Shown one piece after another: positions 43,544-55,105 of a stretch of 55,168 bases of DNA. Numbering within the stretch: position 1 is the stretch's first letter; each line of letters begins with the position of its first letter. The DNA is from Halorubrum sp. Hd13 (GTDB lineage: Archaea > Halobacteriota > Halobacteria > Halobacteriales > Haloferacaceae). Both the position numbers and the translations under genes were made by a program. The DNA is taken from positions 1-55,168 of the forward strand of contig NZ_NHOY01000051.1 of assembly GCF_002252755.1 (NCBI RefSeq), written 5' to 3'. Under the pieces are notes generated by a model. The model had not been told where the DNA came from. It ran no database searches and worked only from the letters and a program-made list of their open reading frames with translations.

Positions 43544-43577
43544 GCCGGGCGCGACCGGGGCGCCGCGGGGGGAGCCG

Positions 43578-44456
43578 TCAGCCGATCAGGAGCCAGCCGA
43601 GGACGACGGCGGTCCCGCCGACGACGGAGCTGACGGCCGCGTGAGTGCGGAGTCGGTCGCGGAGGCGGTGTCCGTCGGCCGCGGCGTCCGCGGGGCAGGT
43701 CTCGCTTCCGGCCGTGCACTCGGGCAGCAGATCGACGGCGACGTGGAGGAACACGCCGGCCCCGACGCCGAACAGCAGACCGCGGACGGTGCTGGACGGG
43801 GTGACGCCGACCGCGGCGACCGGGAGGGCGATGAGGCCGACGGCGGCCGCCGGGAGCGCGAGCACGGCGACCGACCGGTCCCGCCCGGCGAGGCGGCGCG
43901 CCGCGGCGTACCCGGCCGGCGCCTTGTGCGAGACGAGCGCGATACCGAGCAGCGACGTGAGCGACGGCATCGCGCCGTAAATGGCGCCGATGATCGCGCC
44001 GGCCGCGAGCGCGTGGACCGTCAGCTCCGCGGCCGTGTGGTCGACCGGGAGATCGAGGTGCGTGAACCGGTGTCCGAGCGAGTGACCGGCGTACCCCGCC
44101 AGGAAGCCGACGGCGATGCCGAGGCTACCGAAGCGCCCGTGTTGGGCGAGCGCTTGCGGGATCAGAAACAACGCCGTGCTCGTCACCATCGCGCCGCTCG
44201 CCAGCCCGTACCCCCAGACCGGTTCGAGCGGGTGATCGGCCGCCGCCGCCCGGGCGCCCAGCGGCGCGCCGAGCGCCATCGCACCGAACGCCACCCACGA
44301 GATCGCGGGTAGCTTCCACGTGACGTCGGTCGCGAGCGCGAGCGCCGAGAGAGCGACGAGCGCGAGCACGCCGGCGCCGCCGATCGCCCGCTCGCGGGTC
44401 GACAGCGGGACCCGATCGCCGTTCGCCCGGTCGGCGATGTCTTCGAAAGACACCAT
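43578..44456 (-). CDS. ZIP-family divalent metal transporter
   Basis: The 292-residue membrane protein has eight hydrophobic segments. The ZIP core HSLGHRFTHLD and HKAPAGYAAARRL (family motif HK-x-P-E/A) is present, and FLHVAVDLLPE closes the metal path. It probably imports zinc, iron or manganese. A palindrome and AT-rich promoter sit directly upstream. Confidence 0.9.
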   Translation of the reverse strand: MVSFEDIADRANGDRVPLSTRERAIGGAGVLALVALSALALATDVTWKLPAISWVAFGAMALGAPLGARAAAADHPLEPVWGYGLASGAMVTSTALFLIPQALAQHGRFGSLGIAVGFLAGYAGHSLGHRFTHLDLPVDHTAAELTVHALAAGAIIGAIYGAMPSLTSLLGIALVSHKAPAGYAAARRLAGRDRSVAVLALPAAAVGLIALPVAAVGVTPSSTVRGLLFGVGAGVFLHVAVDLLPECTAGSETCPADAAADGHRLRDRLRTHAAVSSVVGGTAVVLGWLLIG

Positions 44457-44462
44457 TGTGCA

Positions 44463-44483
44463 TTAATAACTATATTGTATTAA
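44463..44483 (-). promoter_or_regulatory. Palindrome overlapping the ZIP promoter (candidate operator)
   Basis: The 21-bp element has the arms ttaata and tattaa around a near-symmetric AT-rich centre and lies 7-27 nt before the ZIP ATG, where the TATA box should be. A metal-responsive repressor of the DtxR/SirR kind could bind it; that is inference. Confidence 0.5.
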
Positions 44484-45076
44484 TTGATAATTGTTCCGCC
44501 GAGGACGCGATTCGCGGAGCGCTATCGGGGCGTCGAATCCGGGACGGACGGGCCGAGAGAGCCGCAGTCCGTGACGCCCCGTCGGGCGGGCGCGCGGCGT
44601 CAGCGGGGACGCCGCGAGCCGAGGCGCGCGGAGCGGCCGACGGTACGAGAGGAACGCGGTACGGCCGGCGGCGCGGTAGGCGCGTGGTGCACGCGGTGCG
44701 CTCTGGCGAGCGCACCAAAAATGTGAGGTCACAGAGGCCATTACCTGATATTTCTGTCATACCACTTATGATCCTATCTGCTGATATACGGATGTCGACC
44801 GGGAATATCGGTCGACGCGGTCCCCGGAACGGGGAACGCTGTCAGAGGCACGGCGCGTGACTCGGTGAGGACAGCGAGTCACGCAGGTCGCCGCTCGGAG
44901 GACGTCGGTGGGAGATCGGGCCGAGTGTGAGGCCGAGCAGACGACCTCGTCCGGTCGCGTGAGACGGAGAGCTGAACGGCCGTCGAGTCCCGCACACGCG
45001 TACATATTCGGTATCGCCCGCGAGAAGCGGATTATTCCGTGAAACGTGACATACTGATTCGGTGAAATTATTCGGC
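44484..45076. other. Gene-free region between ZIP and the signalling island
   Basis: No credible gene is visible. It contains hairpins ggtgcgctc/gagcgcacc (44695-44703 with 44708-44716, followed by AAAAA), gtcgaccg/cggtcgac (44794-44816) and gcgtgactcg/cgagtcacgc (44855-44884). A lower-GC stretch (about 44720-44800) and AT-rich sequence at 45000-45075 probably include promoters. Confidence 0.55.
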
Positions 45077-45622
45077 ATGAATTCGGACGTGTCAGTTACT
45101 CGGTTCGACGCGGCGAGTGCACCGTCCGCGCTCGACGCGATGTTCGATGCGGTCTCGGCGTTCAAAAACACGGAAGGCGACGAGCTCCGACGCCTCGATA
45201 GGTACGTCAGCCCCGATGGCATAAACCTCCTCTTCGGCGGGCCGGGCGGTTCAGCGACGCGTCTCGAAGAGGGAACGCTGTCGTTCCGGTACGACGACGT
45301 GTTCGTGACGATGACGCACGACGAGCTGATCGAGGTCATCGACGCCGACGCGTTCCGCTCACGGCCATTGCATTACGGACTCTCAGCGGACGCACGCGCA
45401 CGGGAGTCGACCGAAGCGGCTCTCGAAGTGGCGGCAACGGCACTCGCCGAGGCTGAAGAACACGTCTGGACCGCCGCTACCAACGCGTCGGACAGTGAAC
45501 TCGTCGACCCGCTCTGGGCAGTGGTGGAGCGGCTCTGGGCCATTCAGACATTGATCGATGACCTGACCGCTCGGCCGTGTTCGACTGAACCGCTGGCAAC
45601 ACGGGTCGATGACGAGCGGTGA
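45077..45622 (+). CDS. HalOD1-like output domain protein
   Basis: The 181-residue protein has, at about residues 20-90, the pattern of the haloarchaeal HalOD1 output domain (ALDAMFDAVSAFKNTEGDEL then RRLDRYVSPDGINLLF and LSFRYDDVFVTMTHD). A helical C-terminal part follows and is unassigned. It overlaps the histidine kinase gene by 14 bp, so both are made together and it may be the kinase's output or partner. ATG 45077 is preferred over GTG 45062. Confidence 0.72.
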   Translation: MNSDVSVTRFDAASAPSALDAMFDAVSAFKNTEGDELRRLDRYVSPDGINLLFGGPGGSATRLEEGTLSFRYDDVFVTMTHDELIEVIDADAFRSRPLHYGLSADARARESTEAALEVAATALAEAEEHVWTAATNASDSELVDPLWAVVERLWAIQTLIDDLTARPCSTEPLATRVDDER

Positions 45623-48600
45623 CGAGGTGACCGAGGACGCGCTGTTCAACCTCGGCGTCGACCTCAACCGGGAAGAGACAGTAGGCGGCGCTGTTGATCG
45701 GACACTGACCGCGATCCGTGCCACACTGGGAGACGCAGCGATTACCGTGTGGCGAAACCACAACGAGCGCGACAGCAGCGTTGAGAACGCCCAACCGCCG
45801 GAACAGCCGTCCCAACCGGCGTTTAGTTCCGAACGTCATATCGGTCGGCCGGGCCGAACACCCCCACCGGACGCAGCTCTTATCAAGCGATGTTTCACGA
45901 CTGATGCGCCGGCTCGAACCGACGGGGTGGCCGGACCAATCGCACCGGATGACAGCCGCTGGCTGCCGCGTGAGGAACTGTTCGTTCCGATCGGTCCCGA
46001 GCGTGTGCTGTCGGTTGGATGGGGTCACCGCGACGCTGCGACCGCGTTGGACGGGGCCGCCGTCCGCGATGTCCTAGAGCGAGCAGCGGAGTTACTGGCC
46101 GCGGCACTCGACCGCATTGGCTCCCAGACACGTGAGCCGACAGGCGAGATCGCCTCTGAGATTCGCCTCGGGGCGTTTCAACAAGCGATTGAGGACGCCG
46201 CCGATGGCGTCGCCATTCTTGACGACGAGTCGTACGTCTATATCGACCAGACGCACGTCGACATGTACGGATTCGACAGCAAACAGGAGTTGCTCGGTCG
46301 AAGTTGGCGAGAGCTATACGCTGCGGATGAAGCGGCACGGATCGAGAAGGAAGCTTTCGACGCGCTCGAACGCGATGGTCACTGGCAGGGGCGAGTAACG
46401 GGAAGTCGGCCAGATGGAACGACGTTCCCGGCGGAGCTGTCCCTGACGATGGTCACCCCATCCCGAATGGTCTGTACGGTGCGTGACGTGAGCGATCGTG
46501 AAGCGCGGGAACACGAACTCGCATTAAAAGAGCGGGCGCTGGACGAAGCAGGGACCAGCATCCAGATTACGGACCCGACCCAACCGGGGAACCCGTTGGT
46601 GTACGTCAACGAGGAGTTTGTACAGCTAACCGGATACGAGCGGTCAGAGGCTCTCGGCCGAAACCCGAGATTCCTCCAGGGCCCCGGATCAGATTCGGAG
46701 ACGACAAAGCGCATCCGTACGGCGATCGAAACCGAGCGACCGATAACGACTAAGCTGAGAAACTACACCGCGGAGGGTGAACCGTACTGGGCGAAGCTCT
46801 CCGTGACGCCGGTTCGAGACGCAAACGGAATCGTGACAAACTACATCGGGGTTCAACACGATATTACCGAGCAACGACGGCGGATCAGAGAGCTCAGAGA
46901 CCAGACTGAGCGGCTGGAACTCGTCCTCAGCGGGACGGAGACGGGCATCGGTGAGTGGGACTTCAGTACCAACACAGTCACGTTGGACGCCACTTTACGA
47001 GAGACGGTCGGAGCGAGCCCGACGACGATAGACGAATGGCAAGCAGTAGTTTATCCGGAGGACCGCGAACGTGCCGCTGACGCCCTGCGGCGCCCGATCG
47101 AGACCGGTGACCCGGCTGCTGAGACGATACGAATCGGGACGGATGACAGCGAAGTCACGTGGATAGATCTACACACCGTTGTGAGTGATGCGGGTGATGG
47201 CTCTGCCAGTGTGCTGGCGATGGGGCGGGACGCGACGAAGCGCTCCGAGCGTGTGAAATGGGCGTCGAAACTGTTTGATCAGGGCCCGCTGCTGTTCGTT
47301 CAAACTCGGGCCGTTGGCGGCGAAGCAGTCATTGAGGCCTGTGACCGGTCGTTTTCCGACGCGCTGGGGTGCGAGCGCGAAGCGGTGGTTGGACAGCCGC
47401 TCAGTGAGTTTTATGACGATAGCTCGACTGATTCACTCCAGTCAGACGGCTACGAACGCGCGCTTAGCGGTGATCTCACCGTCGCAGAACGCACGCTCGT
47501 GACGACGGACGGCGACACGGTCCCGTGTCTGTTACGGGCGATCCCACGCACCGTTGACGACGAAGTCGTCGGTACCGATGTGTTGTTTATTGATATCTCT
47601 GAACGCGAGAAGTACACTCGGCGACTGGAGGCTGTGTTTAACAGCCCACACCAGCTTACCGCGTTAGTCCGCCCCAATAAAACCGTGACTGACGTGAACG
47701 ATACGCTGGTCGCACGCATCGGTGTTGATCGGTCGGCAATTGTTGGTGAACCGATCGACAAATTCCCGTGGCTGAGCCTTGACCCGAACCACGAACTCAC
47801 GGTTTCTGAGGCGGTCAACCGCGCGGGTGACGGTGAACTCGTCCAGACCGAAGGAGAACTACAGGGTCCAGATGGTCTCGCACGCATCGACGTGTCGTTC
47901 AAGCCAATTCGTAACGCCGCTGGTGAAATCACGCTGATCGCCGTTGAGGGGAAGGATATTACCGTGAAGACGCGACAGCGACAGCATTTACAGGTGTTCC
48001 AGCGGGTCGTCCGACACAACGTCCGCAACGATTTAAACAAGCTCGTGGGATGGACAACGATGCTCGCCGAGGAACCGGACGCTGACTGTCGTCACGATCA
48101 CCTCCGCCGACTGACGCGTATATTCGACGGATGGGAACGGCTTACGAGCAAAATGCAGGTGATCGATCGCGCGATACGGGAGATACCACACGACGAGTCA
48201 ACCGTTAACATCGCTGAGGTCACTGAAAAGGCCGCGACGGCGGTACGGGATGACCACTCGGACGCAACGATCGCCGTCTCTGTCGACGCGACCGACGGGA
48301 CTGTCTCACGATGGCTTACACACCCGCTTACCGAGGTGATAAAGAACGCGGTGGCCGCAGGAGACAGAGAAGACCCGCACGTCAACGTATCGGTGAGACA
48401 GGCAGACGACGGCTGGCTCCAGATCGTCGTGACTGACGACGGGCCTGGCATGCCAGATATCGAGCGGGGGGTACTCGTCACCGGCGAAGAGACGCCGTTA
48501 CAGCACGGTTCCGCGCTCGGGATCTGGCTGATTCGTATGTTAGTTTCGATGCTTGGCGGGGAGGTCGACGTCGACGTGACCGACACAGGTACCGAGGTCG

Positions 48601-48668
48601 TGCTTCGCGTTCCGACGGCGCCAGCAAACCGCAACCCGGCTTCGGTCGAACCCAGCCGGATGGCCTAA
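45609..48668 (+). CDS. Multi-PAS sensor histidine kinase with a LOV-like domain
   Basis: The 1019-residue cytoplasmic kinase has an N-terminal GAF-like region (10-165) and about five PAS domains (180-300, LOV-like 305-420, 430-540, 545-665, 670-790). The phosphoacceptor region VVRHNVRND has His803, and the ATPase has VIKNAV and DDGPGMPD. The second PAS has the LOV motif with Pro353 where LOV proteins have the photoactive Cys (GRNPRFLQG). No membrane helices are seen. Codon use is less GC-biased than in neighbours, which suggests recent acquisition or fast evolution. Confidence 0.9.
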   Translation: MTSGDEVTEDALFNLGVDLNREETVGGAVDRTLTAIRATLGDAAITVWRNHNERDSSVENAQPPEQPSQPAFSSERHIGRPGRTPPPDAALIKRCFTTDAPARTDGVAGPIAPDDSRWLPREELFVPIGPERVLSVGWGHRDAATALDGAAVRDVLERAAELLAAALDRIGSQTREPTGEIASEIRLGAFQQAIEDAADGVAILDDESYVYIDQTHVDMYGFDSKQELLGRSWRELYAADEAARIEKEAFDALERDGHWQGRVTGSRPDGTTFPAELSLTMVTPSRMVCTVRDVSDREAREHELALKERALDEAGTSIQITDPTQPGNPLVYVNEEFVQLTGYERSEALGRNPRFLQGPGSDSETTKRIRTAIETERPITTKLRNYTAEGEPYWAKLSVTPVRDANGIVTNYIGVQHDITEQRRRIRELRDQTERLELVLSGTETGIGEWDFSTNTVTLDATLRETVGASPTTIDEWQAVVYPEDRERAADALRRPIETGDPAAETIRIGTDDSEVTWIDLHTVVSDAGDGSASVLAMGRDATKRSERVKWASKLFDQGPLLFVQTRAVGGEAVIEACDRSFSDALGCEREAVVGQPLSEFYDDSSTDSLQSDGYERALSGDLTVAERTLVTTDGDTVPCLLRAIPRTVDDEVVGTDVLFIDISEREKYTRRLEAVFNSPHQLTALVRPNKTVTDVNDTLVARIGVDRSAIVGEPIDKFPWLSLDPNHELTVSEAVNRAGDGELVQTEGELQGPDGLARIDVSFKPIRNAAGEITLIAVEGKDITVKTRQRQHLQVFQRVVRHNVRNDLNKLVGWTTMLAEEPDADCRHDHLRRLTRIFDGWERLTSKMQVIDRAIREIPHDESTVNIAEVTEKAATAVRDDHSDATIAVSVDATDGTVSRWLTHPLTEVIKNAVAAGDREDPHVNVSVRQADDGWLQIVVTDDGPGMPDIERGVLVTGEETPLQHGSALGIWLIRMLVSMLGGEVDVDVTDTGTEVVLRVPTAPANRNPASVEPSRMA

Positions 48669-48793
48669 AGAGCGTACTGTACAAACCGCGAGGAGTATGG
48701 GGTGGTCGACGAACAAAGCGCGGCCTCACGACGAAGATCAGCGAGCCGAAATCCAGCGATCGAGGCCGGCTCGTGGCCCGGATTCGCCGGGTG

Positions 48794-49720
48794 CTATTCC
48801 GAGGTAGACTCGCCGCCACCTTCGTCGGCTGTCCCGGAGAGCTGTCGGTCCACCAACCGGACCGACGCTTCGCTATCCGAGCACGGCGCCGAGCCAACCA
48901 CCTGCCATGTGGGAGCAACGTCCTGCTTCCCAGACACGCGCGCCTCGATCTGGCCGTCGCCGGTTCGCATCTCGATGACGTAATCGAGGTGCGCCGCCCC
49001 GAACCGGTCGGCGCCGTCGACGTCGGTTGTCGGCGGCAGGTGGACGAGTCCGCCGACGCCCTGATTGCGCCACTGGCCGACCAGCTCGTGGAGGAACTTG
49101 TCGAGCGTGCGGGCGTCGTGGTGCGCGAGCAGCTGCGTCATCGTCGCGATCGCGAAGGTCCCGGGTCGGTCGTCCGTCACGAGCCGCATCGTCGCGCGCT
49201 CGGCGGCGACCCCGAGCGACGTGAGGTCGCCGCACCGGACCGACCCCGCGTCGCTCGTCGCGATGTCGACGCCGCCGTCGGCCTCCGCGCCGGGCGTCGA
49301 GTCGATGACGAGCGGGTCCATCGCCGAGAGTCGGCCGTAGACCTCGTGACGCGGGTACTTCGTCGTCAACACCGCGCCCGTTTCCGCCATCGCCTCGTAC
49401 ACGGCGTAGAACAGGTCGTCGTACAGCTGGGAGCTCGGCGCCGCGAAGCCGACGACGTCGTCGTACTGAACGGCGGTGTCGGCGATAAAGGCCGGCGTGA
49501 CCGTCTCCGGAGAGGGGTTCAACACGGCTTCGAACACCTCTCCGGGGCGTCGCTCGGCGGCGAGCAGCCTCTCGACCAGGTCGTCCCCCCGTTCGTTGAC
49601 GGAGACAGAGGGGTGGACCCACGACGACCGGTCGTCGCCCGCCGCACTCGCGAGGGGGTCAGTAGAGCGGTTCAGGTACTCGTACACCAGCGTCGGCAGC
49701 TCGGATCCGTCGGCGCTCAC
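48794..49720 (-). CDS. Uncharacterised protein, possibly a degenerate KaiC/RecA-like signalling partner
   Basis: The 308-residue protein begins at a GTG directly after an in-frame stop, which fixes the start. It has alternating beta/alpha segments (PETVTPAFIADTAVQYDDVVGFAAPSS and RPGTFAIATMTQLLAHHDAR, with a pattern seen in KaiC-like folds) but no Walker A motif. Haloarchaeal proteins of this type often lie next to PAS and Bat regulators; a family (DUF7504-like) is suspected from memory. Function unknown. Confidence 0.68.
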   Translation of the reverse strand: MSADGSELPTLVYEYLNRSTDPLASAAGDDRSSWVHPSVSVNERGDDLVERLLAAERRPGEVFEAVLNPSPETVTPAFIADTAVQYDDVVGFAAPSSQLYDDLFYAVYEAMAETGAVLTTKYPRHEVYGRLSAMDPLVIDSTPGAEADGGVDIATSDAGSVRCGDLTSLGVAAERATMRLVTDDRPGTFAIATMTQLLAHHDARTLDKFLHELVGQWRNQGVGGLVHLPPTTDVDGADRFGAAHLDYVIEMRTGDGQIEARVSGKQDVAPTWQVVGSAPCSDSEASVRLVDRQLSGTADEGGGESTSE

Positions 49721-49908
49721 CGATCCTCACCCCCGGTCGACACTGCCCGTGTGAGGGGCGCCACAGGAGTTCGCACCGCGCCGTTTCGAGCGGGGTTCAT
49801 ACCTGTTATTGTCGTAGTATCGCCGATAGTTCTACGTCCGAAGATATGTGGCAGGCCGGTGTGATACCGAATATGTCCGTGTGAGTTGCCGCGGTCGGCT
49901 GGCGGCCG

Positions 49909-52900
49909 TCACTCGAAGAAGCCGCGCATGATCTTCGACTCCGCGGCGCGGAGGTGCTGGTGGAGCGTCGACGAGGACACGTCGAATCGGTCAGCGAGGT
50001 CGGTGCCGCTGATGCGGCGCGGATCGTCGTAGTACCCCTCTCGGAGCGCCGTCTCCGCGATCTCTCGCTGGCGGGTGGTCAGGTCCGGCTCCCCGGTCCA
50101 CCCGTCGGGGCCCCCGGACGGCTCGGAGACGTGCCGCTTCGAGACGAGCCGACACGAGTCGGAGACGGGAACCAGCGCCGCCCGGACCCGCCCGATCACC
50201 GTCGGGTCCGTCGTCCGAAACGCCAAGACGTCGGCGTCCGGGCGGGAACGGACGCCGCGCAGCCGCGTGTCCGTCCCGGCGAGCACGTCGCGGACGGCGG
50301 CCAGCGAGCGGTCCGGCGTGTCCCGCATCCGCACGGCGACCTCGTGGGTGTCGCGGTCGACGGAGTCGACGCCGTCGAGTTCGATGCCCGGCGTCGCCGC
50401 GACGTAGTCGCGGAACGCCGTTTCGGTGTAGCCGTCGACGCGGCCGGTCAGGTGAAAGCTCTCGCCGCCGGTCATCGCGACGTGCTCGACGGCGATCGAG
50501 CCGTCCGCCGGGAGGCCGGGGAAGAGCGGCGACGGCCGCCGGCACTCCAGGGCGAAGGCGATAGGCGCGTTCGACGCGGTGGCGGACTCGAGCGTCGACA
50601 GGCGCATCCCGGCGGCGTCCGCGACCGCGCCGAGCGCCCGCCGCTCCGGCTCGGCGAAGCGCTCGGCGTCCGTGCTGATGAACTCGGCGACGGCGTGGAC
50701 GGTCCCGTAGTGGCTCACCGGAACCGCGAACGACTCCCGGTAGCCGAAGTGGAGCAGCCGGTTGATCCACTCGCCGTGACCGGCCGCGGTCGCCTGCCCG
50801 TCCACGGCGTGCTGCCGCTCGTCGCGCGTGGCGGCGACGACCGCGGGGAACGACTGCTCGTCGGTCTCGTACAGCTTCGCGGGTCCGCCCGGCTCGGTCA
50901 CCTCGACCGGGTCGACCCGCTTTGCGGCCGGGTCGTACGTGCCGACGAACGCGTACTCCGCCACCCGACCGCCGACGTCGACGATCGCTTCGCGCACCGC
51001 AGCCGGCGTCTCCGCCGTCGCGATGGTCTCGACGGCGTCGACGACGCCCTCCCGCAGGTCCCTGTGCCGGTTCGCCTGTCGCCGGGTGCTGGCGACGTCG
51101 TTCGAGAGGCCCGCTATCGACGTCTCCTGGCGGAGCTGGGTGAGCGCGGCCGAGACCTGCTGGCTCACCGCTCGGATGAACGACTCCAGCGACTCGTTCC
51201 GCTCGTCGACGACCACGCTCAGCAGGCTCGTGTCACCGAGCTGCGTGGCGAGCGCCTGCTTCCCGGCCGCGTCGGCCGAGTCGACGACGGCGTCGGCCGG
51301 GAGCCAGCACGTCTCGGGCTCGCTGAACGCTCGCCAGAGGTCCGTCTCGCCCGGCTCGATGCGTCGGCGACTGGGCGGGGCGGCCTCGTCGCCCGCGGTC
51401 GCCAGCCGCACCAGCTCCCCCTCCGAGGTGTCGCGGTCGTATATCGCTAGCTCGTCCGCCGTCACCACGTCGGCGACCGCCTCGACGCAGGCGTCGAACG
51501 CGTCCTGCGGGTCCGTCGCCTGGAACACGCGGTTGCTCACGGCGTAGAGGTTCGTCAGCCGGCGCTGACGGTCGAGCTCGTCGCGCGCGTCGGTGAGGTC
51601 GGTGATGTCGTTGGCGACGCCGAGCACCGCGTCTCCCTCGCCGTCGACCGGAGAGAACGGGATCTTCCACGTCTCCAACACGCGTTCGTTGCCCGCGGCG
51701 TCGGTCAGGGCCTCCTCGGTGCGATGGAGCGGCTCGCCGGTCTCGATCACCCGCCTGTCGTCGGCGGCGAACGCGTCCGCCTCGTCCGGGTCGGTCGCGT
51801 AGTCGGCGTCGGTCGATCCGATCAGGTCCGAGACCGTGGTGCCGTACGCCTCGGCGACCGCCTCGTTCGCGAGTAGGAACTCGCCGTCGGTGTTCTTCGC
51901 GAATATCAGCTGCGGGACCGTGTTGATGACGCGTTCGAGCTGGTTGCGCTCGGCCTCGATGCGGTCGCGTGCGGCGCGCAGCTGTCGGCGCTGCGCGACG
52001 AGTTCGATCGCCGTCCGGAGGTACTGCGTGACGATCAGGATGAGCTCGCGCTCGTCCTCGTCGAGGGCGTCCGACTCCCGCGCCCCGACGATGAACACGC
52101 CGTCGTCGCCGACGGGGACGATGAACTCCGTGCTGATCGGCGTCGCCGGGTTGTGGACCCCGCGCTCCGCGGCGACGTCCGGATAGTACGCCGGCGTCCC
52201 GGCGTCGAACGCGTCCCACGCGAGCGACTCGCCCGGGCGGAATCGCGGCACGTCGTCGACGATCGACGCCCCCTCGTCGGAGACGGACACCGGGACGAGG
52301 GCGTCGTCGGGGGCGCTCGGCCCGGCGGAGTCCGTCTCGGCGGCGCCGTCCGCCCAGTAGCCGGAGAACGGTCGGTCGATGATCTCCGCGATCCCCTCGA
52401 TCGCGGTGTCGATCACGTCCTCATACTCGTCCGCGGTCATCAGCGTCTCGGCGAGCGACCGCGTCTCACCGAGGCGGCGGAGCCGGCGCTCCTGCTCGGT
52501 GAGGTCGAGGTTGACACAGGTGATCCCGCCGTCGGGGAGCTGCGCGAGCGACACGCGTTGCGTGATCGGCGTGCCGTCCCGCTTGACGCCGACCAGCTCC
52601 CCGTCCCACGATCCCGTCTCCGCGACGACCGGGAGGACCTCGCGTTCGATCCGCTCGATGACATCGTCCGCGTAGATCTGTCGCCACGTCCCGCCGAGCA
52701 GCTCGTCGGCGTCGTCGTAGCCGAACATCGTGACGTGGGCGTCGTTGAGGTACGTGTACGTGCCGTCCGCGTCCAGCAGCGCGATGCCGGATGTCGTGAG
52801 GTCCATCGCGGTCGCCTGCCGTTCGACCCGGGTGAGGTGCGCCACCCGCTCGCTCGCGTCCGTGAAGATGCCGAGCACGTACTCCGTGCCGGCGTGCGTG

Positions 52901-53241
52901 AACGGCGTCGACCGCACGTCGACGGGCACCGTCGACCCGTCCGCACGCAGGATCGTGACCGGCTCCGCCGCCTCGCCGGAAGCGCGTTCCCGTCCCGCGT
53001 CTCGGACCGCCTGAAACCCCTCGCGCACGTTCTGCTCGGCCTCCGGCGGGTGAAGCTCGGTCTGGTGCATGCCGACGAGCGACGAGCGGTCGCGACCGAA
53101 CAGCTCGGTCGCGGCCTCGTTGACCGCGACGACCGTGCCGCTGTCGGCCTCCGCCGCGAGGATCGGAGAGGGAGCTTTTATCGCCAGCCGCGCCAGGAAC
53201 GGGTCGGCCCCAGAGTCGGCCGAGATGCGATCCAAACTCAT
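49909..53241 (-). CDS. Large PAS/GAF sensor with Bat-type (HTH_10) DNA-binding domain
   Basis: The 1110-residue regulator has PAS domains at about 20-130, 140-250 and 425-550, GAF domains at about 265-405, 560-690 and 730-880, and a bacterioopsin-activator output (890-1110). The output ends in an HTH_10 with LTTRQREIAETALREGYYD and GTDLADRFDVSSSTLHQHLRAA. It probably senses redox, light or a small molecule and directly regulates genes. It is divergent from the GTPase gene, with an alternating palindrome between them. Confidence 0.9.
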   Translation of the reverse strand: MSLDRISADSGADPFLARLAIKAPSPILAAEADSGTVVAVNEAATELFGRDRSSLVGMHQTELHPPEAEQNVREGFQAVRDAGRERASGEAAEPVTILRADGSTVPVDVRSTPFTHAGTEYVLGIFTDASERVAHLTRVERQATAMDLTTSGIALLDADGTYTYLNDAHVTMFGYDDADELLGGTWRQIYADDVIERIEREVLPVVAETGSWDGELVGVKRDGTPITQRVSLAQLPDGGITCVNLDLTEQERRLRRLGETRSLAETLMTADEYEDVIDTAIEGIAEIIDRPFSGYWADGAAETDSAGPSAPDDALVPVSVSDEGASIVDDVPRFRPGESLAWDAFDAGTPAYYPDVAAERGVHNPATPISTEFIVPVGDDGVFIVGARESDALDEDERELILIVTQYLRTAIELVAQRRQLRAARDRIEAERNQLERVINTVPQLIFAKNTDGEFLLANEAVAEAYGTTVSDLIGSTDADYATDPDEADAFAADDRRVIETGEPLHRTEEALTDAAGNERVLETWKIPFSPVDGEGDAVLGVANDITDLTDARDELDRQRRLTNLYAVSNRVFQATDPQDAFDACVEAVADVVTADELAIYDRDTSEGELVRLATAGDEAAPPSRRRIEPGETDLWRAFSEPETCWLPADAVVDSADAAGKQALATQLGDTSLLSVVVDERNESLESFIRAVSQQVSAALTQLRQETSIAGLSNDVASTRRQANRHRDLREGVVDAVETIATAETPAAVREAIVDVGGRVAEYAFVGTYDPAAKRVDPVEVTEPGGPAKLYETDEQSFPAVVAATRDERQHAVDGQATAAGHGEWINRLLHFGYRESFAVPVSHYGTVHAVAEFISTDAERFAEPERRALGAVADAAGMRLSTLESATASNAPIAFALECRRPSPLFPGLPADGSIAVEHVAMTGGESFHLTGRVDGYTETAFRDYVAATPGIELDGVDSVDRDTHEVAVRMRDTPDRSLAAVRDVLAGTDTRLRGVRSRPDADVLAFRTTDPTVIGRVRAALVPVSDSCRLVSKRHVSEPSGGPDGWTGEPDLTTRQREIAETALREGYYDDPRRISGTDLADRFDVSSSTLHQHLRAAESKIMRGFFE

Positions 53242-53284
53242 CTTGTTACGTAAATCAGTATTCCGAACTGACCTGAGTGTATCG

Positions 53285-53314
53285 GCTCGGGAGCGCTCCC
53301 GAGCGCTCGGGAGC
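53285..53314. promoter_or_regulatory. Three alternating 10-bp palindromic units
   Basis: gctcgggagc (53285-53294), gctcccgagc (53295-53304) and gctcgggagc (53305-53314) are contiguous, the middle one being the reverse complement of the others. This gives a perfect 20-bp palindrome and an overlapping one in the 138-bp divergent promoter. It is a strong candidate operator, possibly for the adjacent Bat-type regulator. Confidence 0.6.
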
Positions 53315-53379
53315 GATCACGTGACGTGGGGACGGATCGCACGAAAACCGTTAAGCCCGGCTGTCGCCTACGAGCGTGT

Positions 53380-55011
53380 ATGAGCGCTGACCGGTCCGCG
53401 TTACGGCGGGCCATCGAGCGCGGCGAGCGCGACGGCGGCGCGATCGAGTTCAAAGAGCGGCTGACACGCGAGGTCCACTTGGCGGAGGGACGCATGGAGT
53501 CGCTCGTGGCCCAGCTCCGCCACCGAGTGCTCTCGGGCGACGGCGAGGCGACGTACGTCCTCGGCGTCACCGACGACGGCGGGCTGGCCGGGATCGCGCC
53601 CGAGACCTTCTCCGAGACGATGGACGTCCTCTCGCTGTTGGCCGACGAGGCGGACGCCCACATCGCCGACGTGGAGACGTGGAGCGCCGGCTCGGCCGGC
53701 AACGGCGGTTCGGAGGGACTCGTCGGTCTCGCGACCCTCCGCGACGGCGGGATGTTCGAGACGGACGACGACCACCTCGTGGTCGGCACGGCCGGCCACG
53801 TCGACCACGGGAAGTCGACGCTCGTCGGCACCCTCGTGACCGGGCGGGCCGACGACGGCCAGGGCGGGACGCGCGGCTTCCTCGACGTCCAGCCCCACGA
53901 GGTCGAGCGGGGGCTCTCCGCCGACCTGTCGTACGCCGTCTACGGCTTCGAGGAGGCGGGCGGCGAGCCGGTCCGGATGGATAACCCGCACCGCAAGTCC
54001 GACCGCGCGCGGATCGTCGAGGAGGCCGACCGACTCGTCTCCTTCGTCGACACGGTCGGCCACGAGCCGTGGCTGCGGACGACGATCCGCGGGCTCGTCG
54101 GCCAGAAGCTCGACTACGGGCTCCTCGTCGTCGCCGCCGACGACGGGCCGACGAAGACGACCCGCGAGCACCTCGGCATCCTGCTGGCGACCGAGCTGCC
54201 GACGATCGTCGCGATCACGAAGGCGGACGCCGTGAGCGACGACCGGGTCGCCGAGGTCGAGCGCGAGGCCGAGTCGATGCTACGGGACGCCGGGCAGACC
54301 CCCCTCCTCGTGGACCGCCACGGGATCGACGCGGCGGTCGCGGAGGTCGGCGACGGCGTCGTGCCGCTCCTCCGGACCAGCGCGGTGACGAAGGACGGGC
54401 TCGGGACGCTCGACCGACTGTTCGAGACGCTTCCGAAGCGGGCGACCCCGGAGCGCGCGGAGTTCCGGATGTACGTCGACCGGAGCTACAAGGTGACCGG
54501 CGTCGGCGCCGTCGCGTCCGGCACGGTCAACTCCGGCACCGTCGAGGCCGGCGACGAGCTCCTCCTCGGCCCGATGGCCGACGGCTCCTTCCGCGAGGTG
54601 GAGGCGCGCTCGATCGAGATGCACTACCACCGGGTCGACAAGGCGAGCGCCGGCCGGATCGTCGGCATCGCGCTGAAGGGGGTCGACGAGGCGGAGATCG
54701 AGCGCGGGATGGCCCTGGTGCCGCGCGAGAGCGACCCCGACCCCGTCCGCGAGTTCGAGGCCGAGGTGATGGTGCTGAACCACCCGACCAGAATCCAGGA
54801 GGGGTACGAGCCGGTCGTCCACGTGGAGACCGTCTCCGAGGCCGCCGTCTTCGCGCCCGAGGGCGGCCGGCTCCTGCCCGGCGACACCGGACAGACGCGG
54901 GTCCGGTTCAAGTTCCGGCCCTACCTCGTGGAGGAGGGCCAGCGGTTCGTCTTCCGCGAGGGGTCGAGCAAGGGCGTCGGGACGATTCGGGACGTGGATT
55001 CGGCGGAGTGA
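53380..55011 (+). CDS. GTPBP1-like translational GTPase
   Basis: The 543-residue protein has an N-terminal domain of about 130 residues (with EFKERLTREVHLAEGRMESL) and an EF-Tu-like GTPase. G1 is GHVDHGKST (139-147), G3 DTVGHE and G4 TKAD. Beta-barrel domains II and III follow (MYVDRSYKVTGVGAVASGT, ... ). It resembles the GTPBP1/2 group, which act on mRNA decay or stalled ribosomes in eukaryotes; the archaeal role is unproven. Confidence 0.9.
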   Translation: MSADRSALRRAIERGERDGGAIEFKERLTREVHLAEGRMESLVAQLRHRVLSGDGEATYVLGVTDDGGLAGIAPETFSETMDVLSLLADEADAHIADVETWSAGSAGNGGSEGLVGLATLRDGGMFETDDDHLVVGTAGHVDHGKSTLVGTLVTGRADDGQGGTRGFLDVQPHEVERGLSADLSYAVYGFEEAGGEPVRMDNPHRKSDRARIVEEADRLVSFVDTVGHEPWLRTTIRGLVGQKLDYGLLVVAADDGPTKTTREHLGILLATELPTIVAITKADAVSDDRVAEVEREAESMLRDAGQTPLLVDRHGIDAAVAEVGDGVVPLLRTSAVTKDGLGTLDRLFETLPKRATPERAEFRMYVDRSYKVTGVGAVASGTVNSGTVEAGDELLLGPMADGSFREVEARSIEMHYHRVDKASAGRIVGIALKGVDEAEIERGMALVPRESDPDPVREFEAEVMVLNHPTRIQEGYEPVVHVETVSEAAVFAPEGGRLLPGDTGQTRVRFKFRPYLVEEGQRFVFREGSSKGVGTIRDVDSAE

Positions 55012-55040
55012 ATCGACGGATTGGGCCTCAACGGGACAGT

Positions 55041-55105
55041 TCAGTCCCCCTCGACGAAACGGATCAGTCCCCCTCGACGAAACGGATCAGTCCCCCTCGA
55101 CGGAG
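55041..55105. repeat. 23-bp tandem repeat at a gene end
   Basis: Units tcagtccccctcgacgaaac + gga begin at 55041, 55064 and 55087. The third overlaps the 3' end of the minus-strand gene cut by the window edge, including its TGA, so the repeat appears to be duplications of that gene's last codons. Confidence 0.8.

Follow-up and report, generated by a model that had tools for sequence, protein, structure and literature searches.

Ten-base-pair phased units upstream of a GTPBP1-like GTPase gene in Halorubrum: a likely conserved control element beside a newly arrived Bat gene

The locus and its repeat array

The window, by which we mean the whole 55,168-bp stretch of DNA that was analysed, carries a gene for a GTPBP1-like GTPase, a divergently oriented gene for a Bat-type regulator and, between the two, three copies of the 10-bp unit GCTCGGGAGC (Table 1). 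These copies follow one another with no spacing and in alternating orientation, 44-73 bp from the bat start codon (ATG at 53241, minus strand) and 66-95 bp from that of the GTPase gene (ATG at 53380), just as the preliminary description had reported. It had also described two overlapping perfect palindromes of 20 bp; one of them indeed measures 20 bp (53285-53304), but the other extends to 22 bp (53294-53315). These are the longest perfect palindromes of the window, the next longest being of 18 bp. Because the unit on its own is close to a palindrome (GCTC-SS-GAGC), only the central GG or CC tells a forward from a reverse copy, and a direct repeat with a period of 10 bp is an equally valid reading of the array.

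Table 1 Features of the GTPase-bat locus, with positions in the window
Feature	Position	Strand	Remarks
Accessory island, ~9.7 kb, ending at the array	43544..53284		Boundaries approximate
Bat-type regulator (PAS, GAF, HTH_10)	49909..53241	-	Domain matches; newcomer beside the element
Array unit 1, GCTCGGGAGC	53285..53294	+	Units 1-2 exact in G000, G024 and G002
Array unit 2, GCTCCCGAGC on the plus strand	53295..53304	-	Register -10
Array unit 3	53305..53314	+	Register 0, 26 nt before ACGAAAA; common genus form GCTCGGTACC
Conserved core, GATCACGTGACGTGGGGACG	53315..53334	+	Just 5' of the BRE; most columns 0.5-2.0 bits (46 genus genomes), few free columns
BRE-like ACGAAAA of the GTPase promoter	53341..53347	+	Genus alignment; matches the proposed haloarchaeal BRE
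TATA-like GTTAAG of the GTPase promoter	53350..53355	+	Near-invariant in the genus
TA at -11/-10, proposed WW element	53369..53370	+	Both columns 2.0 bits
GTPBP1-like GTPase, gene owning the element	53380..55011	+	Pfam GTP_EFTU, domains 2 and 3

The expected number of GCTCGGGAGC copies in the window was 0.59 and the observed number three; because 3 of 100 shuffles also reached three copies anywhere, the unusual feature of the array is its contiguity. We searched 97 genomes (52 of the genus Halorubrum and 45 others) for the exact 20-mer pattern GCTCSSGAGCGCTCSSGAGC, which was found in only three, at one place in each, while its reversed control gave 0 matches. The three were the genome of the window (G000), H. 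kocurii JCM 14978 (G024) and Halorubrum sp. Boch-26 (G002); in each the pattern precedes the same GTPase gene, and the whole set of 52 genus genomes returned the same three. A looser pattern, CTCSSGAGNNCTCSSGAG, had two plus-strand placements in the genome of the window, both at the array, but proves nothing alone because the reversed control also matched twice. What stands at 53285-53314 is an exact array, and chance does not account for it.

By sequence, the closest solved relative of the GTPase is GTPBP1: the best match in the PDB was GTP-binding protein 1 (E 1.9e-68), followed by an EF-Tu (4.6e-35). Haloarchaeal basal promoters have been described as combining a proposed CGAAA BRE, a TTWT TATA element, a WW element at -10 and leaderless transcripts (PMC4983044). 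The GTPase promoter resembles this description in its ACGAAAA, its GTTAAG and its TA at -11/-10, and its start codon is likely to be the transcript start; the position of GTTAAG would fit a leaderless start at 53380. The phased units and the core differ from such basal elements in that they sit further upstream, are gene-specific and lie outside the basal promoter. Beyond the other end of the gene, just after the GTPase stop codon (about 55030-55105 of the window), a sequence of ~27 bp (cagtccccctcgacgaaacggat...) occurs in two to three tandem copies. In G030, G020 and G009 (loci L012, L016 and L017) the match to the GTPase contained one in-frame TGA, possibly at its very end.

Conservation of the element with the GTPase gene

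Across the 52 genus genomes the upstream neighbour of the GTPase gene was a divergent gene of the 282-aa type in 35, a TFB gene in nine, bat in two and another gene in six, and the element was kept beside three kinds of neighbour. Most GTPase promoters, whatever the neighbour, present CGCTCssGAG units followed by CGATCACGTGnCGTGGGGAC, the BRE ACGAAAA, the TATA-like GTTAAG and a TA near -10. Column conservation was calculated from the 46 of 52 genus genomes that were aligned gap-free on the BRE (leaving out G001, G026, G035, G039, G045 and G046), and in these 46 the conservation of core and units dropped off further upstream. At the position of unit 2 (register -10), GCTCnnGAGC was matched at 6 or more of its 8 specified positions in 39 of the 52 genomes and perfectly in 13. 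A perfect unit at the register of unit 3 was present in one of the 52, the genome of the window.

Upstream sequences were tabulated for the 52 genus genomes and a chosen 18 of the 45 others. In other genera, a core tgTG..ATG stood at the same register and distance from the BRE. The set from outside Halorubrum comprised 50 named loci, of which the 27 with a BRE-like anchor were scored for GCTCnnGAGC at 91 registers. The three best registers were 0, +10 and -10 relative to unit 3 of the window; some examples at register 0 had been seen by eye before scoring, whereas +10 and -10 had not been sought beforehand in these loci. Registers 0 (3.56 of 8) and -10 (3.15 of 8) beat all 1000 shuffles, while register -20 was not significant in these 27 loci (145 of 1000 shuffles). 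At register 0, only 6 of the 27 scored 6 of 8 or better, among them loci of Halopenitus, Halogranum, Haloprofundus and Halegenticoccus. On these comparisons GTPase orthologues share the position of the element with respect to the BRE, and the element is kept when the neighbouring gene differs.

The 10-bp spacing was also apparent without a defined motif. Over the 60 bp that precede the core, the 52 Halorubrum genomes had a mean lag-10 identity of 0.403, compared with 0.293 in dinucleotide shuffles. The corresponding z of 12.7 is an upper limit to the evidence, since the genomes are related and their independence is overstated; lag 20 gave a z of 5.5 for the same segment and genomes. The lag-10 peak was restricted to this segment (further upstream, 0.26-0.33) and was individually significant (p<0.05) in 21 of the 52 genomes, the other 31 falling short. 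In the window, 95 of 55,109 segments reached the 60-bp lag-10 value of the array, so that the single genome is unconvincing; the comparative signal is convincing. A repeat spacing of one helical turn is thus above chance and localised in the compared sequences. Selection on the pairing of the palindromes, that is, on dyad symmetry itself, is not clearly revealed by covariation. For the 22-bp palindrome (10 pairs scored) the paired percentage was reached by 2 of 500 shuffles and the count of covarying pairs by 337 of 500. The covariation test showed nothing for the other two structures. One pair (columns 12-21) gave five compensated sequences and the rest little.

A sequence-only profile of the element was built from 33 promoters: 43 of the 52 had been taken, G008, G009 and G043 being left out as well, and 33 of these 43 aligned. 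It was then run against 59 genomes. Filtering was strict and about 100 candidates were scored in each genome, which means that weak sites may have escaped; most of the sequences matched had themselves contributed to the profile. The 29 matches at E<1e-6 each lay upstream of a GTPase gene, and a strong match was obtained in 29 of the 35 genus genomes scanned. No second strong site was found elsewhere below 6e-4 in the 59 genomes, nor in the genome of the window, where the next separate site had an E value of 0.017. With one strong site per genome, at the GTPase gene, the sequence appears, within the filter limits of the scan, to be a dedicated element rather than a regulon motif.

The bat island and apparent turnover of the units

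Sequence comparison indicates that bat came later, on the island of ~9.7 kb, and did not bring the site. In G004, which lacks the island, the TFB stop codon, the palindrome and the GTPase gene are contiguous. In H. kocurii (G024) the island is ~99% identical to that of the window (74 substitutions in about 9,500 columns, 43750-53249), whereas the flanks have diverged (104 substitutions in 1,500 columns towards the GTPase gene, 377 in about 2,550 at the opposite end). On the right, divergence changes somewhere from 53113 to 53311, either at the last unit of the array or shortly before it. Inspection of the left end revealed no copy of the array beside the TFB stop codon, and we therefore claim no target-site duplication. 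Besides Bat, the island (43544-53284) encodes a 292-aa protein with no Pfam or NCBIfam match that looks by eye like a metal transporter, a HalOD1 protein, a multi-PAS histidine kinase, one segment of which resembles blue-light LOV proteins, and a DUF7504 protein.

The number of units appears to change by whole 10-bp steps, units being gained or lost. The start of the divergent gene lay 118 bp away in G027, G044 and G047, and 128 bp away in G017, G023, G028, G029, G037 and G050. For each of the three promoter-proximal pairs, adjacent units resembled one another more within a genome than between genomes (13, 52 and 135 of 5000 permutations); the fourth pair (920 of 5000) did not show this. The GTPase promoters of G005, G010 and G018 (L004, L044 and L009) carry lineage-private 10-bp arrays that are almost perfectly homogenised, which suggests recurrent whole-turn duplication.

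The perfect form of unit 3 is peculiar to the genome of the window. In most relatives that keep the unit it reads GCTCGGTACC or a near variant, and GCTCGGTACC is also its form in G024, which shares the bat island; GCTCGGGAGC is found there in G000 only, which differs from G024 at 53311 and 53313. These two changes perfect the palindrome. Template switching at quasipalindromes is described as producing nearby changes that turn an imperfect inverted repeat into a perfect one (PMC7202029), and unit 3 may have been perfected in this manner by its two nearby substitutions. Such hotspots resemble unit 3 in that two nearby changes complete an inverted repeat; they would account for its becoming perfect, but not for the conserved register. 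Alternatively, unit 3 could derive from a different donor at the recombination boundary.

Rival readings and a proposed operator

The preliminary description had read the array as a site for cooperative binding by a dimeric regulator, with autoregulation of bat as one possibility. The first part is plausible, and the site is conserved in orthologous promoters, but these are the promoters of the GTPase gene and not of bat. Cooperative binding of a Bat dimer to the array, with control by Bat of its own gene, would be in keeping with the C-terminal HTH_10 domain of the protein and with a bat start 44 bp from the array. Yet the motif CTCSSGAG occurred in 0 of 8 promoters of Bat relatives (G029, G027, G023, G035, G009, G045, G046 and the distant G078) over the last 400 bp (260 bp for G045). 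A Bat orthologue (at least 1200 bits) was listed in 9 of the 52 genus genomes, the element being far more widespread, and in four genomes with an orthologue (G009, G035, G045 and G046) the GTPase element was degenerate or none was recognisable. No Bat-like gene was present in up to 1.5 kb upstream of the 50 non-Halorubrum loci. Bat is thus a newcomer that adjoins the GTPase gene in two genus genomes and whose relatives lack the motif, which makes autoregulation unlikely. The array is not conserved with bat, and we dropped the reading of a Bat operator as very improbable; Bat is probably not the cognate binder of the array.

The strongest competitor, though in our judgement still an unlikely one, is a functionless repeat generated by 10-bp tandem duplication and palindrome-making template switching. 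The likeness of adjacent units within a genome (the three promoter-proximal pairs, not the fourth), the private homogenised arrays of three lineages and the two nearby changes that perfect unit 3 of G000 relative to G024, as in quasipalindromes (PMC7202029), all speak for it. Neutral turnover is harder to reconcile with a register to the BRE that is fixed across genera, with the strong conservation of unit 2 and core and with the persistence of the element beside different neighbours; turnover and function are in any case compatible. Units spaced by one helical turn and partly tolerant in sequence might instead curve the promoter DNA or position a nucleoid protein, with no specific regulator bound. 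We regard such a DNA-shape or chromatin signal as improbable: specific bases and not just composition are conserved, and profile matches above the strong threshold lie only at this one gene. Lowest of all we rank a hairpin terminator or RNA element of the upstream gene. The palindrome does lie directly 3' of the TFB stop codon in several genomes, such as G004, and its single-strand DNA fold is favourable (-13.2 kcal/mol, z -2.9), but a TFB gene adjoins the GTPase gene in no more than 9 of 52 genomes and no T-run follows the array. In the window the array is upstream of each of the two predicted promoters and should be absent from both transcripts; with the neighbour not constant either, this explanation was rejected.

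We therefore favour, as somewhat better than an even prospect on comparative grounds, that the array is the 5' part of an old and conserved element, phased to the DNA helix, that controls the divergent GTPBP1-like GTPase gene, a turn-phased operator for a putative oligomeric regulator. From the alignments, successive near-palindromic GCTCnnGAGC units are spaced by exactly one helical turn, the last one ending at a constant 26 nt from the BRE, and a conserved core adjoins them, CGTGnCGTGGGG in Halorubrum and tgTGnnATG elsewhere. A dimeric or oligomeric factor that binds one face of the DNA would be in keeping with units that lie just upstream of BRE and TATA, recur once per turn, are nearly palindromic and keep a constant register; an operator function is likely. 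A homodimeric or oligomeric regulator would contact one unit per turn and meet TFB/TBP at the adjacent BRE and TATA; it would most likely be an activator, because the element sits upstream of the BRE. No candidate regulator emerged from the present analysis. With the end of the island at the array, Bat may now be exposed to the control element of the GTPase gene. More tentatively, and with less than even probability, the element could be a single-target, turn-by-turn operator of the GTPBP1-like GTPase across Haloferacales, bound by an oligomerising regulator and tuned by whole-turn duplication of its units, which was captured here and in H. kocurii by an incoming sensory island so that Bat falls under it.

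In Halobacterium salinarum, the bop gene has an upstream activating sequence (UAS) under Bat control. The present element can be likened to it in position and neighbourhood: both lie upstream of BRE and TATA, and a Bat-family protein is encoded nearby. The element described here differs in that it tracks the GTPase gene and not bat. The activator role of Bat at bop in Halobacterium salinarum is described in PMC3184054. Our comparison corrects the assignment of a conspicuous palindrome from bat to the GTPase gene, and points to a cis-element that is conserved and specific to one gene, that of an archaeal GTPBP1-like GTPase; our literature search found no such control element of a GTPBP1-like GTPase gene. 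Its apparent change by full helical turns, combined with an unvarying register to the BRE, makes the array a naturally occurring test case for phasing in the control of archaeal transcription.

Two further arrangements were noted upstream of the GTPase gene: longer tandem repeats containing GGTGCTCGGGAGCGGTCCG in G038 (L007) and, at the place of the array in G040 (L011), a long inverted repeat with arms of roughly 20 bp.
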